Below, one piece after another: positions 20,015 to 34,313 of a DNA stretch of 64,000 bases. Both the position numbers and the translations under genes were made by a program. Origin of the DNA: Arcobacter ellisii (GTDB lineage Bacteria > Campylobacterota > Campylobacteria > Campylobacterales > Arcobacteraceae); the NCBI RefSeq assembly GCF_003544915.1, contig NZ_CP032097.1, positions 2,108,001 to 2,172,000 on the forward strand, written 5' to 3'. The notes under the pieces are model-generated. The model did no database searches. It was given only the letters and a program-made list of their open reading frames with translations, and had not been told where the DNA came from. Each line of letters opens with the position of its first letter. Positions within the stretch are counted from its first letter, which is position 1.

Positions 20015-20087
20015 ATTGATAATCATTCTTAATATTAATCAAGAATTAAGTTTTATTCTTATAGTATTTCAATAATGATTATCAATA
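20015..20087 (+). promoter_or_regulatory. Iron-regulated promoter with two Fur-like boxes
   Basis: ATTGATAATCATTCTTAA (20015-20032) and AATAATGATTATCAATA (20071-20087) both match the Fur consensus of GATAAT/ATTATC repeats. A possible -10 TATAGT (20060-20065) lies between them, so bound repressor would cover the promoter. The first gene begins at 20101. A fur gene lies 1.7 kb downstream. Confidence 0.7.
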
Positions 20088-20100
20088 TAAAGGATAAAAA

Positions 20101-20160
20101 ATGTTTGAAAATTTTGAAAATAAAAAAGACCTTGTAAAACCAACCGGTTGTACTTGTTAA
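20101..20160 (+). CDS. Putative 19-residue cysteine-containing peptide (C-terminal CxC)
   Basis: A complete reading frame, MFENFENKKDLVKPTGCTC then TAA, directly after the Fur-like boxes. AAGGATAAAAA precedes its ATG, the same kind of site used by the next gene. The peptide ends Pro-Thr-Gly-Cys-Thr-Cys, which could bind a metal or be modified. It lies 14 bases before the DUF2325 gene and must be on the same transcript. Alternatives are a translated leader that senses cysteine supply, though the next gene has its own ribosome site and no attenuator hairpin is seen in the gap. No RiPP-type maturation enzyme is recognisable in the window. Confidence 0.6.
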   Translation: MFENFENKKDLVKPTGCTC

Positions 20161-20174
20161 AAAAAGGATAAAAG

Positions 20175-20510
20175 ATGAGTATTTTAATTATTGGTGGAGA
20201 TCAAATCTCACAAATTTCAACGATGCTTACTGAACTTGGTGCAAAAACAATAAATCATTGGGATGCAAGAAAAAAATCTTCTGCTCCAAAGAAAAAAGTT
20301 CCACAAGATACAGATTGTATTGTAATGCTTACATCTTTTTTAAATCATAATACTATGCTTAAATATAAAAATGAAGCAAAAAAGAAAAACATACCATTTA
20401 TTTGTGCAAAACGGTCAATAAACTGTGTTTATGATGAATATGTAAAAATAATGGGAATAAAAGATTGCAAAGAGTGTTATGCAAATTGTGATAAGGAATT
20501 AAAATGTTAG
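20175..20510 (+). CDS. DUF2325 protein, cysteine-rich C-terminus
   Basis: 111 residues of the DUF2325 family. It begins MSILIIGGDQISQISTMLTELG, a Rossmann-like start, and contains DTDCIVMLTSFLNHNTM and ICAKRSINC. The tail CKECYANCDKELKC carries four cysteines within 14 residues. Family knowledge: DUF2325 genes occur in iron- or haem-regulated operons but their biochemical role is not established. AAAAAAGGATAAAAG precedes the ATG. The stop overlaps the next start by 7 bases. Cysteine density suggests metal or redox chemistry, which is inference. Confidence 0.75.
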   Translation: MSILIIGGDQISQISTMLTELGAKTINHWDARKKSSAPKKKVPQDTDCIVMLTSFLNHNTMLKYKNEAKKKNIPFICAKRSINCVYDEYVKIMGIKDCKECYANCDKELKC

Positions 20511-21262
20511 AAAATAATTTAATCGGCTTTTCACAAGATAAAGAGTATTTACCAAAAGATTTTGATGAATTTAACTCATTAAATAGATTGAGACAGCTAT
20601 TTTTAAATCTAAGTAACAATATTTTAAATTCTTATTGCAATTTCACAAAATATGAACAAAGAGTTTTATCTAATTATGATTTGGAAAAAGCTTTCATATA
20701 TAAAATAAAAAATATGCAACCATTAAGTTTTGTAAAAATAAATAAACCTAAAAGTAAAAATTTTAGATTTTGTCTAAATTCAACAAAAATTATTAACAAT
20801 TATTTTAATCCAAACAACAAAGAACCTATTTTTATTTCAAATAATAAACTTTTACCTTTAGCAAAATTAATCTCTGTTTGTTATGTAAATAACAAACATC
20901 AATTATTGATTGATAAACATTTACTATTCCATGAATTTGTTTTAAAGAAAATAAAAAAACTTCATAGTGATAAAACTGTTATAGATTTAGGAAACTCTAT
21001 TTGTATCAAATCAGAAGAGTTTGTAGGATTAAAAATTTATACATCTTGGAAAGATATAGAAGTAAAAAAACCAAATATAAAAGATGAACTAGAAAGTGCA
21101 ATTAAATCTATAAAAAAAGGCGAATATTTTCAAATATATTTGGCTTATCCAAAAAATAATGAATTTACAAAACAAATACCTGTTTATGTAGATGAATTAA
21201 AAAATAAAGAGTATCAAATAAAAGCTATTCCTTACTCTTTAAGATCAATTATAAAAAATTAA
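20504..21262 (+). CDS. Unknown protein in the Fur-box-preceded operon
   Basis: 252 residues, soluble, no signal peptide or membrane segment, family not recognised. It is rich in Asn, Lys and Ile with scattered Cys (about 45, 93, 125, 167). A C-terminal stretch (LESAIKSIKKGEYFQIYLAYPKN) precedes a short hydrophilic tail. The start overlaps the DUF2325 gene by 7 bases and flavodoxin begins 21 bases after its stop, so it is a middle gene of the operon. Its position suggests a role under iron limitation; nothing in the sequence names a reaction. Confidence 0.7.
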   Translation: MLENNLIGFSQDKEYLPKDFDEFNSLNRLRQLFLNLSNNILNSYCNFTKYEQRVLSNYDLEKAFIYKIKNMQPLSFVKINKPKSKNFRFCLNSTKIINNYFNPNNKEPIFISNNKLLPLAKLISVCYVNNKHQLLIDKHLLFHEFVLKKIKKLHSDKTVIDLGNSICIKSEEFVGLKIYTSWKDIEVKKPNIKDELESAIKSIKKGEYFQIYLAYPKNNEFTKQIPVYVDELKNKEYQIKAIPYSLRSIIKN

Positions 21263-21283: not shown

Positions 21284-21781
21284 ATGGCAACAGCAATATT
21301 TTTTGCAAGTAGTACTGGAAATTCTGAAGAGATAGCAAATAAAATTGCTTCAAAACTTGGAGATATTGAAGTATTTGATTTGGCTGGAACTAAAATCGAT
21401 AGAGTAAATGAATATGATAAATTAATTCTTGGTGGCTCAACTTGGGGAGATGGAGAATTAAATGATGATTGGGAAGATGCGTGGGGCGATTTTTGTAAAT
21501 TAGATTTATCAGGAAAAACTATTGCCCTTTTTGGTTTAGGAGATCAAGAGAGTTATAGTGATGAATTTTGTAGTGCAATGGGTATTATTTATGAACAAAT
21601 AAAATCTAATAATGCAAAAATTGTTGGTTTTACTTCAACTGATGGTTATTATCATGATGGTTCAAAAGCACAAATTGAAAATAATTTTGTTGGACTTGTA
21701 TTAGATGAAGATAATCAAAGTGATTTAACTGATGAAAGAATTGAAAACTGGGTAAATAATATTAAATCTGAGATTTTATAA
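21284..21781 (+). CDS. fldA: Flavodoxin
   Basis: A 165-residue FMN electron carrier. The phosphate-binding loop SSTGNSEEIA lies near residue 10. The loops around GGSTWGDGELNDDW and LFGLGDQESYSDEFCSAMG are typical of long-chain flavodoxins. It can replace ferredoxin when iron is scarce, which fits its place as last gene of the unit with Fur-like boxes. AGGAG precedes the ATG. In Campylobacterota flavodoxin is also the electron acceptor of pyruvate:acceptor oxidoreductase (family knowledge). Confidence 0.94.
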   Translation: MATAIFFASSTGNSEEIANKIASKLGDIEVFDLAGTKIDRVNEYDKLILGGSTWGDGELNDDWEDAWGDFCKLDLSGKTIALFGLGDQESYSDEFCSAMGIIYEQIKSNNAKIVGFTSTDGYYHDGSKAQIENNFVGLVLDEDNQSDLTDERIENWVNNIKSEIL

Positions 21782-21790
21782 ATTAGAAGT

Positions 21791-21819
21791 TAGTATATTA
21801 AGAATTTCTTAATATACTA
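21791..21819. terminator. Bidirectional terminator between fldA and fur
   Basis: A 13-bp stem, TAGTATATTAAGA with TCTTAATATACTA, loop ATT. It lies after the fldA stop and covers the stop codon of the converging fur gene. Confidence 0.65.
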
Positions 21820-22269
21820 TGAATCTTGACAAGTATCACAAGTACCATACAACTGCATAGAGTGACTTGTTATTTTAAACTTATTTTTTTTAGCAATTTT
21901 ATCTTGTCTCTTTTCAATTTCATCATCAATAAACTCAATTATCTTACCACAACTTGTGCATATTAAATGATCGTGATGAGATTTTGCATTACTTTCATAT
22001 TTTTTCCCATCTGTTCCAAATGTGATTGAAGTGATTAAATCTACTTCTTCTAAGAAACTAAGAGCTCTATATACAGTTGCAATTCCTATATTAGAATCTT
22101 TATAATCTTTTTTTATTTGATTATAAATTTCTTCAGCAGTTAAATGTTCTTTTGCATGTAATAAAATATTTAAAACAATCTCTCTTTGTTCTGTATATTT
22201 AAGACCTTTTTGCTTTACTATTTTTTTTAATTCATCAATTATTTCTTCATTATTGTTTTCATTTAACAT
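21817..22269 (-). CDS. fur: Ferric uptake regulator Fur
   Basis: An iron-sensing repressor of 150 residues from the ATG at 22269, which is preceded by AAGGGTG. The frame stays open to 22353, but a TATAAT at 22288-22293 (this strand) lies inside that extension, so the long start is unlikely. The winged-helix domain includes GIATVYRALSFLEEVDLI. The metal-binding domain has SHHDHLICTSCGKIIEF and a second CxxC pair, GTCDTC. It is divergent from feoA and convergent with the flavodoxin unit, both with Fur-like boxes. PerR paralogs look similar, but the CxxC pairs and location favour Fur. Confidence 0.85.
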   Translation of the reverse strand: MLNENNNEEIIDELKKIVKQKGLKYTEQREIVLNILLHAKEHLTAEEIYNQIKKDYKDSNIGIATVYRALSFLEEVDLITSITFGTDGKKYESNAKSHHDHLICTSCGKIIEFIDDEIEKRQDKIAKKNKFKITSHSMQLYGTCDTCQDS

Positions 22270-22411: not shown

Positions 22412-22639
22412 ATGACGTTAGATGAATTAAAATTGCATGAAAGTGGGCAAATAGTCGCCATTAATTGCGATAGTATTTTAAGAAATAGACTCTACTCTTT
22501 TGGAATTGTAAAAGGTGCAATTGTAACAATAGAAGGTTTAACTCTAACAAAAAGTACAATAGAGATAAAAATCAACCAATCAAAAATCGCATTAAGATTA
22601 AGTGAAGCTTCAAAAATTGAGGTTGAATATGCAAAATAA
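22412..22639 (+). CDS. feoA: Ferrous iron transport protein FeoA
   Basis: A 75-residue SH3-like cytoplasmic protein that assists FeoB. It has the family pattern MTLDELKLHESGQIVAINCD, a central GIVKGAIVTIEG and IALRLSEASKIEVE near the end. It overlaps feoB by 11 bases. The upstream palindrome supports iron-dependent control. Confidence 0.92.
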   Translation: MTLDELKLHESGQIVAINCDSILRNRLYSFGIVKGAIVTIEGLTLTKSTIEIKINQSKIALRLSEASKIEVEYAK

Positions 22640-24737
22640 AGTTATAACTATTGCACTTGTAGGTCAACCAAATGTGGGAAAATCTATGCTTATCAACTCT
22701 TTATCAAATGCTAGATTAAAAGTTGGGAATTTTTCAGGGGTTACAGTTACAAAAGAGGAGGTTTTTTTAGAATACAAAGGTTATCAAATTCAAATTATTG
22801 ATTTACCTGGTGCATATTCTTTAAATAATTATACTTTAGAAGAAAAAGTTACTAAAGAGTTTTTAGATAACTCTCATTATGACATTATTCTAAATGTTTT
22901 AGACTCAACAAACTTACAAAGAAACCTATTTTTAACTGCTGAACTATTAGCTTTAGATAAAAAAATGATAATTGCACTTAATATGAGTGATGAAGCCCAA
23001 AAAGAATCTATAATGATTGACGAAGTTCAACTAAGTAAAATTCTTGGAAAACCTTGTATAAAAACAAGTGCTGCAAAAAAAATAGGGATTCAAAAACTTT
23101 TAGATGAAATTGTTTTTAAATTTGAAAATGAAAAACTTCCAACAAAACTTTTTTTCTCAGATGTAATAGAAGAAGAGATAGAAACTATCTCAAAACTTTT
23201 ACAAGAGTGTAATTATAAAACAAACCAAACATATAGACAAATTGCAATAAAACTTTTAAAAGAAGATACTCAAACTTATAGACAATTAAAAGAAGAACCA
23301 ATATGGATAAAGCTTCAAAATCTTTTAACTGAAGCATTTAAACATTTATATATTCATTATCAAACAAAAAATATGGAAGACATTTTTAATGATGAAAAAT
23401 TTGCTTTTGCAAAAGGTGCAACAACTGAAACTGTAAAACAATCATTAAAAAGAGAAAAAACTTTAACTGAAAAATTTGATTCAATATTAATTCATAAATT
23501 CTTTGGATTACCTATATTTTTATTTTTGATGTGGGGATTGTTTCAATTAACTTTTGAAATTGGGAATATTCCAATGGATTTAATTGATGCCTTTTTTGCA
23601 AGTGTAATTGATAAAACTAAAACTGTTTTAGGAGATAATCAACTCTCTTCAATTATTGGAGATGGGGTTATTGCAGGAGTTGGTTCAGTTATTTTATTTT
23701 TACCAAATATTATGATTCTATTTTTTGGTATTGCTTTACTTGAAACAACTGGATATATGAGTAGAGTTGCTTTTTTACTTGATGGTTTCTTTCATAAATT
23801 TGGACTTCATGGTAAATCTTTTATTCCACTTGTAACAGGTTTTGGATGTTCAGTTCCTGCATATATGGCTGCACGTACTTTAAAAAATGAAAGAGATAGA
23901 CTTTTAACTCTATTTATTATTGGATTTATGTCTTGTGGGGCAAGACTTCCTATTTATGTACTTTTTGTTGGAGCATTTTTTGGAAATCAAAATGCTGGAA
24001 ATGTATTATTTTTAATCTATATTTGTGGTGCCATTTTAGGTTTATTTGCAGCAAAAATATTAAAAGTTATTGTATTTAAAAGTGAAGATGAACCTTTTGT
24101 TATGGAGATGCCAAAATATAGAGTTCCTTCATTTAAACTAATTTGGCATACAGTTTCAAATCAAGCTTTAATGTATCTAAAAAAAGCAGGAACATATATT
24201 CTTGCGGCGTCATTACTTATTTGGTTTGCAAGTAACTACCCAAAACATCTTGATGTTGAAAATGATTTTAATACAAAAATAGAATTAGCACAAAGTGAAG
24301 AAGAAAAAATAAATTTACAAAATGAACTAAGTTTATATAATCTTGAAAACTCTTATTTAGGTTATCTTGGAAAATTTTCAGAACCTCTATTTAGACCTTT
24401 AGGATTTGATTGGAAAATGTCAGTTGCTTTAGAAACAGGACTTGCTGCTAAAGAGATTGTTGTTTCTACTTTATCTATTCTTTATGGTTTAGGAAGTGAC
24501 AATAATGAAACATCAGATAGTTTAGTAGAAAAAATTAAAAATAATATACCTTTTGCTTCAGCAATATCATTTATTGTATTTGTAATGATTTATTTACCTT
24601 GTTTAGCAGCATCAATGGTATTTATGAGAGAAGCAGGAAATTGGAAATATTTATGGTATCTATTTATTTTTACAACATCAACTGCTTGGATTATGTCTTT
24701 TATCACTTATAATATAACTAAATTACTAATAAATTAA
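22629..24737 (+). CDS. feoB: Ferrous iron transporter FeoB
   Basis: An inner-membrane Fe(II) transporter of about 702 residues with an N-terminal G domain: GQPNVGKS (G1), DLPGAYS (G3) and NMSDE (G4). The membrane part has the Gate motifs, including GFGCSVPAYMAARTL with the conserved cysteine, and the second Gate SVALETGLAAKEIVVS. Start 22629 is chosen because GAGG (22619-22622) precedes it and it begins just before the G1 loop. The upstream alternative at 22602 lies within feoA. Co-transcribed with feoA. Confidence 0.95.
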   Translation: MQNKVITIALVGQPNVGKSMLINSLSNARLKVGNFSGVTVTKEEVFLEYKGYQIQIIDLPGAYSLNNYTLEEKVTKEFLDNSHYDIILNVLDSTNLQRNLFLTAELLALDKKMIIALNMSDEAQKESIMIDEVQLSKILGKPCIKTSAAKKIGIQKLLDEIVFKFENEKLPTKLFFSDVIEEEIETISKLLQECNYKTNQTYRQIAIKLLKEDTQTYRQLKEEPIWIKLQNLLTEAFKHLYIHYQTKNMEDIFNDEKFAFAKGATTETVKQSLKREKTLTEKFDSILIHKFFGLPIFLFLMWGLFQLTFEIGNIPMDLIDAFFASVIDKTKTVLGDNQLSSIIGDGVIAGVGSVILFLPNIMILFFGIALLETTGYMSRVAFLLDGFFHKFGLHGKSFIPLVTGFGCSVPAYMAARTLKNERDRLLTLFIIGFMSCGARLPIYVLFVGAFFGNQNAGNVLFLIYICGAILGLFAAKILKVIVFKSEDEPFVMEMPKYRVPSFKLIWHTVSNQALMYLKKAGTYILAASLLIWFASNYPKHLDVENDFNTKIELAQSEEEKINLQNELSLYNLENSYLGYLGKFSEPLFRPLGFDWKMSVALETGLAAKEIVVSTLSILYGLGSDNNETSDSLVEKIKNNIPFASAISFIVFVMIYLPCLAASMVFMREAGNWKYLWYLFIFTTSTAWIMSFITYNITKLLIN

Positions 24738-31397: not shown

Positions 31398-34313
<2,916 letters not shown>

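Follow-up and report, generated by a model that had tools for sequence, protein, structure and literature searches.

The Peptide Gene and Its Locus

The locus described here begins with a gene for a peptide of only 19 residues, which is followed by genes encoding a DUF2325 protein, a 252-amino acid (aa) protein and a flavodoxin. The main features, in coordinates of the window (the whole 64-kb stretch of DNA that was analyzed), are as follows:

20018 to 20036, + strand, Fur-like box 1, GATAATCATTCTTAATATT, 14 of 19 positions matching the Escherichia coli consensus GATAATGATAATCATTATC
20060 to 20065, + strand, candidate -10 element TATAGT between both boxes, predicted from the sequence
20071 to 20089, + strand, Fur-like box 2, AATAATGATTATCAATATA, 16 of 19 positions matching the E. 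coli consensus; abuts the Shine-Dalgarno site of the peptide
20090 to 20094, + strand, Shine-Dalgarno site AAGGA of the peptide, ahead of the ATG at 20101
20101 to 20160, + strand, peptide gene, MFENFENKKDLVKPTGCTC, 19 codons plus stop; homologs in 41 distinct loci
20164 to 20168, + strand, Shine-Dalgarno site AAGGA of DUF2325, nucleotides 4 to 8 past the peptide stop; DUF2325 ATG at 20175
20175 to 20510, + strand, DUF2325 protein (Pfam PF10087, E 1e-16; AlphaFold2 pLDDT 80.5)
20504 to 21262, + strand, 252-aa protein with a predicted McrC fold (AlphaFold2 pLDDT 84.7; Foldseek match to McrC 6ut7_G, E 2e-4)
21284 to 21781, + strand, long-chain flavodoxin, FldA type (TIGR01752, 209.8 bits)
21817 to 22269, - strand, convergent Fur-family regulator (PF01475, E 6e-43)
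22412 to 24737, + strand, feoA-feoB, ferrous iron transport (FeoA PF04023, E 5e-18; FeoB-like ORF 22602-24737)

A direct reading of the sequence places the ATG of the peptide at 20101 and its TAA stop at 20158-20160, and the complete 19-codon ORF with its own AAGGA and a Pro-Thr-Gly-Cys-Thr-Cys tail that the first-pass annotation had reported is indeed present. The Pfam and NCBIfam scans likewise bear out the DUF2325 gene, the unannotated 252-aa protein and the flavodoxin that it had placed downstream. No named family had been proposed for the peptide; no Pfam or NCBIfam model matches it, and a Pfam search (including DUF2946) with three members also gave no match, 21-aa queries having little power.

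The DUF2325 protein is predicted to have a small Rossmann-like fold and a Cys-rich tail. Its structure was considered as a clue to function and discarded, the fold being a common one and the best match (Z 8.9) uninformative. The modeled 252-aa protein is predicted to have the McrC fold, with a VIA Z of 14.7 over 241 residues against the Thermococcus McrC and of 10.3 and 9.9 against the McrBC entries 7vsr and 6ut6, respectively. No McrB gene adjoins it, and the usual nuclease catalytic lysine motif seems to be absent from its sequence. Judging from the gene order, it is probably a relative of Campylobacter jejuni Cj1383c. The best NCBIfam model for the convergent regulator is a Fur of the Helicobacter type, with a score under the model cut-off. 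Elsewhere in the window, positions 32001-34000 have a GC content of 0.47, compared to about 0.25-0.29 in the surrounding DNA, as an rRNA operon or foreign DNA would give.

Promoter and Fur-Like Boxes

The two Fur-like boxes around a candidate -10 element, which the first-pass annotation had described, are confirmed, and the pair recurs, about 53 nt apart, in both the relatives that have the peptide and those that lack it. Box 2 is the best-scoring 19-mer of the window. Boxes that match at 14 of 19 positions are commonplace by chance in AT-rich DNA, a Markov background predicting about four per window when the forward strand alone is counted. What exceeds chance is the constant spacing of the pair together with the conserved ORF, not the single boxes. 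Members of a Fur regulon have boxes over the promoter, and two boxes are conserved in the peptide-bearing leaders of the Arcobacteraceae.

In C. jejuni, fldA lies next to Cj1384c-Cj1383c. Iron strongly represses both Cj1384c, which encodes a DUF2325 protein, and its neighbor Cj1383c, and the two genes are up in a fur mutant; Fur repression of Cj1384c is evident in published RNA-seq, and the gene has a Fur repression motif (PMC3815106, PMC4491227). Violet-blue light induces Cj1384c more than any other gene (PMC9426514), and DUF2325 is among the C. jejuni genes with the strongest induction under oxidative and iron stress (PMC9426514, PMC3815106). The Arcobacter locus resembles Cj1384c-Cj1383c, where the DUF2325 gene is Fur-regulated and strongly iron-responsive (PMC3815106, PMC4491227). 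From this homology and from the box pair, we infer that the Arcobacter operon is under Fur control.

Peptide Homologs and Coding Constraint

Relatives of the DUF2325 gene were collected from 104 Arcobacteraceae genomes, named GTDB contigs and other families of the order, and the DNA upstream of each was read. Peptide homologs precede DUF2325 in 41 distinct loci, 40 in the Arcobacteraceae and one in another family of the order. The carriers comprise about 40 species of the Arcobacter family, including Arcobacter caeni (L048), Poseidonibacter lekithochrous (L057), P. ostreae (L062) and Malaciobacter halophilus (L068). The homologs are 18-24 residues long (the length of L065, which is partly N-masked, is unsure) and start with ATG in 38 copies and TTG in three. 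A Shine-Dalgarno site is present before the peptide in all 41 copies and was found before DUF2325 in 39 of them.

The N-terminus of the peptide varies in both length and sequence (5-9 variable residues). The tail that follows is mostly [NK][KR]x[DEN]L[VI][KE]P[TS]GCTC, with NKxDL[VI]K-PTGCTC nearly fixed, and 39 of the 41 peptides end exactly at GCTC. The remaining two, L025 and L079 (Poseidonibacter-type), have lost the stop and kept GCTC, reading GCTC-MWGK and GCTC-LWER. In these two, the stop after GCTC is now ATG or TTG, and a single nucleotide separates the end of the ORF from the DUF2325 ATG; the losses could be two independent events or one shared event. Seventeen of the 41 peptides have an additional Cys, located around positions 4 to 7 (L025 and L079 are left out, where their own GCTC had been counted). 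This third Cys takes the form MxxC in L002-L004, L012, L014-L016, L018-L022, L024, L026, L058 and L076 and is at position 7 in L039; the peptide of the window lacks it.

Substitutions in the tail are mostly synonymous. Over the last nine codons, pN/pS is 0.12 (35 distinct DNA versions). The GCTC codons display five extra third-base states and no amino acid changes, the zero being partly by construction since GCTC belonged to the pattern used to find the copies; other CxC variants were sought upstream of DUF2325 and none was found. Synonymous change is free in three of the four GCTC codons, and the Thr codon varies twice. Tail positions 1 and 3-8, which are outside the search pattern, have on their own an excess of third-base change (15/28, p 0.02). 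No conserved RNA structure was found in the leader, the mean fold z being +0.36 against shuffles for 23 leaders. The constraint on the peptide tail is a coding constraint.

Short ORFs are frequent in AT-rich DNA, and one could ask if this one arose by chance or is a DNA or RNA element taken for coding. Because the substitutions are mostly synonymous and the frame and start are conserved in the 41 loci, we consider the peptide to be a genuine gene and not a chance ORF. The homolog outside of the Arcobacteraceae and the absence of RNA structure point the same way, and the chance explanation is excluded in practice. The first-pass annotation had said that a frame or Cys codons unconserved in relatives would count against the peptide; both are conserved, as a real coding gene would have them.

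The same substitution pattern bears on the suggestion that the tail senses cysteine. According to this explanation, slow Cys codons would report the supply of cysteinyl-tRNA, and hence of iron-sulfur, and the two invariant Cys codons beside the stop would suit such an attenuator. However, Leu, Val/Ile, Lys, Pro, Thr, Gly and the Thr that separates the cysteines are also conserved, with free third bases, which would be superfluous for a codon sensor. Furthermore, alternative hairpins are absent, as the fold scores given above indicate, and the gap to DUF2325 is about 13 nt. A pure cysteine-codon sensor is therefore disfavored, and we consider it highly improbable.

Presence, Absence and Linkage to DUF2325

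The peptide has a clean pattern of presence and absence. Where box 2 and DUF2325 are 45 nt or more apart, 40 of 43 leaders contain it, 39 of them as the first ORF found; in the other, L083, an upstream overlapping ATG was taken first by the ORF picking. The three long leaders without it are L070, L107 and L118. Among leaders shorter than 45 nt, none of 28 has the peptide, and DUF2325 mostly starts about 10 nt past box 2. Many close relatives, including the A. cryaerophilus group, are without the peptide, and no decayed copies or remnants were found in the peptide-less relatives. Comparison of the leaders suggests that these species have lost the entire cassette, the Fur boxes then preceding DUF2325 at the same distance. 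On a DUF2325 tree, built on few columns and with many of its forks unresolved, the presence label needs 6 changes compared to 26 in shuffles, which fits an early origin followed by several losses.

The linkage to DUF2325 is strict. A motif scan of 397 Campylobacterota genomes found the peptide only ahead of DUF2325, in the Arcobacteraceae and in G040 (described below), plus one stray match (L136); apart from that match, there were no copies elsewhere in the genomes or in viral contigs. Outside of the Arcobacteraceae, none of the DUF2325 genes examined had the peptide, G040 excepted. The same succession of DUF2325, McrC-like and flavodoxin genes recurs at L114, a locus from a different family of the order. 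An Arcobacter sp. plasmid, p133_LEO_107 (CP134847.1; L138, 2501-3622), has a DUF2325 gene followed by HNH endonuclease and HipA-family genes, and plasmids of Aliarcobacter faecis and A. cryaerophilus have partial DUF2325 matches.

The neighborhood of the pair is more variable. In L042, L087 and likewise L024, the McrC-like and flavodoxin genes are missing, and the peptide and DUF2325 remain. In the L024 draft genome, the DUF2325 gene at 1501 stops after 28 residues with the peptide intact, possibly a sequencing error. G040 (L116), the carrier from another family of the order, encodes the peptide MLKIKARDDLIKGNGCTC with its own AAGGAG. The gene order there is the end of a gene that, as far as can be judged from that end, looks like an outer-membrane protein gene, then the peptide, a 31-nt gap and DUF2325-feoA-feoB, with the DUF2325 ribosome site starting about 20 nt past the peptide stop. 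A second genome of the same family had no DUF2325 match. Co-variation of the peptide with the Cys-rich tail of DUF2325 was considered and set aside, G040 having the peptide and a DUF2325 without the tail.

The contexts of G040, L042 and L087 imply that the peptide is not tied to the first place in the operon, to the McrC-like gene or to the flavodoxin gene, and DUF2325 is its constant partner. The earlier statement that the peptide heads a Fur-box operon therefore stands for the Arcobacteraceae and is not general, the G040 peptide lying inside another operon.

These contexts also bear on the idea of a modified tail, i.e., a RiPP-like precursor whose PTGCTC core would be processed by an operon enzyme into a metal chelator. 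A conserved Cys/Thr C-terminus within an iron-starvation operon and a DUF2325 neighbor of unknown chemistry are what one would look for. However, none of the operon proteins matched YcaO, radical-SAM, MNIO or a protease, no exporter adjoins the peptide, and the peptide is retained where DUF2325 alone stands before fur or feo genes. Since the operon is without a maturase, the RiPP-like product that the first-pass annotation had allowed for is disfavored, and we regard it as improbable.

Comparison with Known Systems

The FbpA, FbpB and FbpC proteins of Bacillus subtilis are Fur-controlled small proteins of iron sparing that are made in iron starvation. They resemble the peptide in being small proteins under Fur control, but they are longer, basic and without a CxC tail; we know of no sequence resemblance between them and the peptide. 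TnaC is a leader peptide of 24 aa. Leaders of the TnaC type share with the peptide a similar length, a variable N-terminus and a fixed C-terminal block before the stop. However, the peptide is without the Trp, Asp and Pro-stop determinants of TnaC, and it is not followed by a long leader or a terminator region. TnaC-type leaders have the stop right after the conserved block; 39 of the 41 homologs do so too, but L025 and L079 add four codons, a further difference.

CruR and CutF (DUF2946) are also small proteins with a Cys motif encoded before metal-related genes. CruR is 145 aa long and exported, with a CXXC (CXXXC in CutF) that precedes a RAPP/proline arrest motif by about 45 residues (PMC9426467, PMC9973294). 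In contrast, the peptide is 19 aa long with CxC at the very end, and its setting is iron, not copper. All 41 homologs have their CxC at the C-terminus or close to it, none has a RAPP-like arrest motif, and a reading of the sequences for an export signal found no hydrophobic stretch. A search of one literature library for Arcobacter small proteins and Fur-linked CxC peptides found nothing. Fur-controlled small proteins and leader peptides with a Cys motif are known kinds; what is new here is the family and its motif.

A Possible Leader Peptide or Trans-Acting Microprotein

The main alternative to a working peptide is a cis-acting leader, in which the nascent chain or its termination would control DUF2325 and the operon, at the level of translation or transcription, and the released peptide would have no job. 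The ribosome could stall around GCTC-stop, where it would cover the ribosome site of DUF2325, or the two genes could be coupled. A variable N-terminus ahead of a fixed block of 13 codons resembles arrest-type leader peptides, and the stop is 9-20 nt before DUF2325, whose Shine-Dalgarno site falls in the footprint of a halted ribosome. The peptide is also the first gene of the operon in the Arcobacteraceae and always has DUF2325 behind it.

Several observations are difficult to explain in this way. L025 and L079 run four residues beyond GCTC, and in G040 the gap is 31 nt, the DUF2325 ribosome site being about 20 nt downstream of the stop. The gap has neither structure nor terminator, and no known arrest motif is present. 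Moreover, a 19-residue chain would be wholly inside the exit tunnel, where metal sensing of the CruR type is hard to picture; the roughly 45 residues between motif and arrest in CruR/CutF exceed the length of the peptide, which weighs against a leader. We consider a cis-acting leader unlikely, but to be taken seriously.

We lean, by a little over even chances, toward a genuine Fur-controlled microprotein, a trans-acting thiol peptide that works beside DUF2325 in the iron-starvation regulon of the Arcobacteraceae. Iron-loaded Fur on the two boxes would shut the promoter; when iron falls, production would begin with the peptide and go on to DUF2325, the McrC-fold protein and the flavodoxin. The translated peptide would most likely act in trans, alongside DUF2325, with the variable, lysine-rich N-terminal part as a tether and two thiols presented by the fixed tail, DL(V/I)K-PTG-CTC. 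The peptide probably acts through these CxC thiols, which may serve as ligands for a thiophilic metal (ferrous iron, cuprous copper or zinc) or alternate between free and disulfide forms. The tail possibly docks on DUF2325. Against this reading count the many close relatives that do without the peptide and the likeness of its conserved C-terminus to that of arrest-type leaders.

A broader proposal, which we put forward tentatively and think somewhat doubtful, is that the peptide represents a new class of thiol microproteins, or of nascent-peptide regulators, under Fur control, in which metal binding by Gly-Cys-Thr-Cys adjusts the activity or expression of DUF2325. If true, this would give the iron-starvation operon a second, metal-reading layer behind Fur.

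Genes of this length often escape annotation. The family with the invariant Cys-Thr-Cys tail would be an overlooked part of iron homeostasis in much of the Arcobacteraceae, and the related species with and without the peptide permit a natural comparison. The peptide may also provide a handle on DUF2325, a widespread protein of unknown function.
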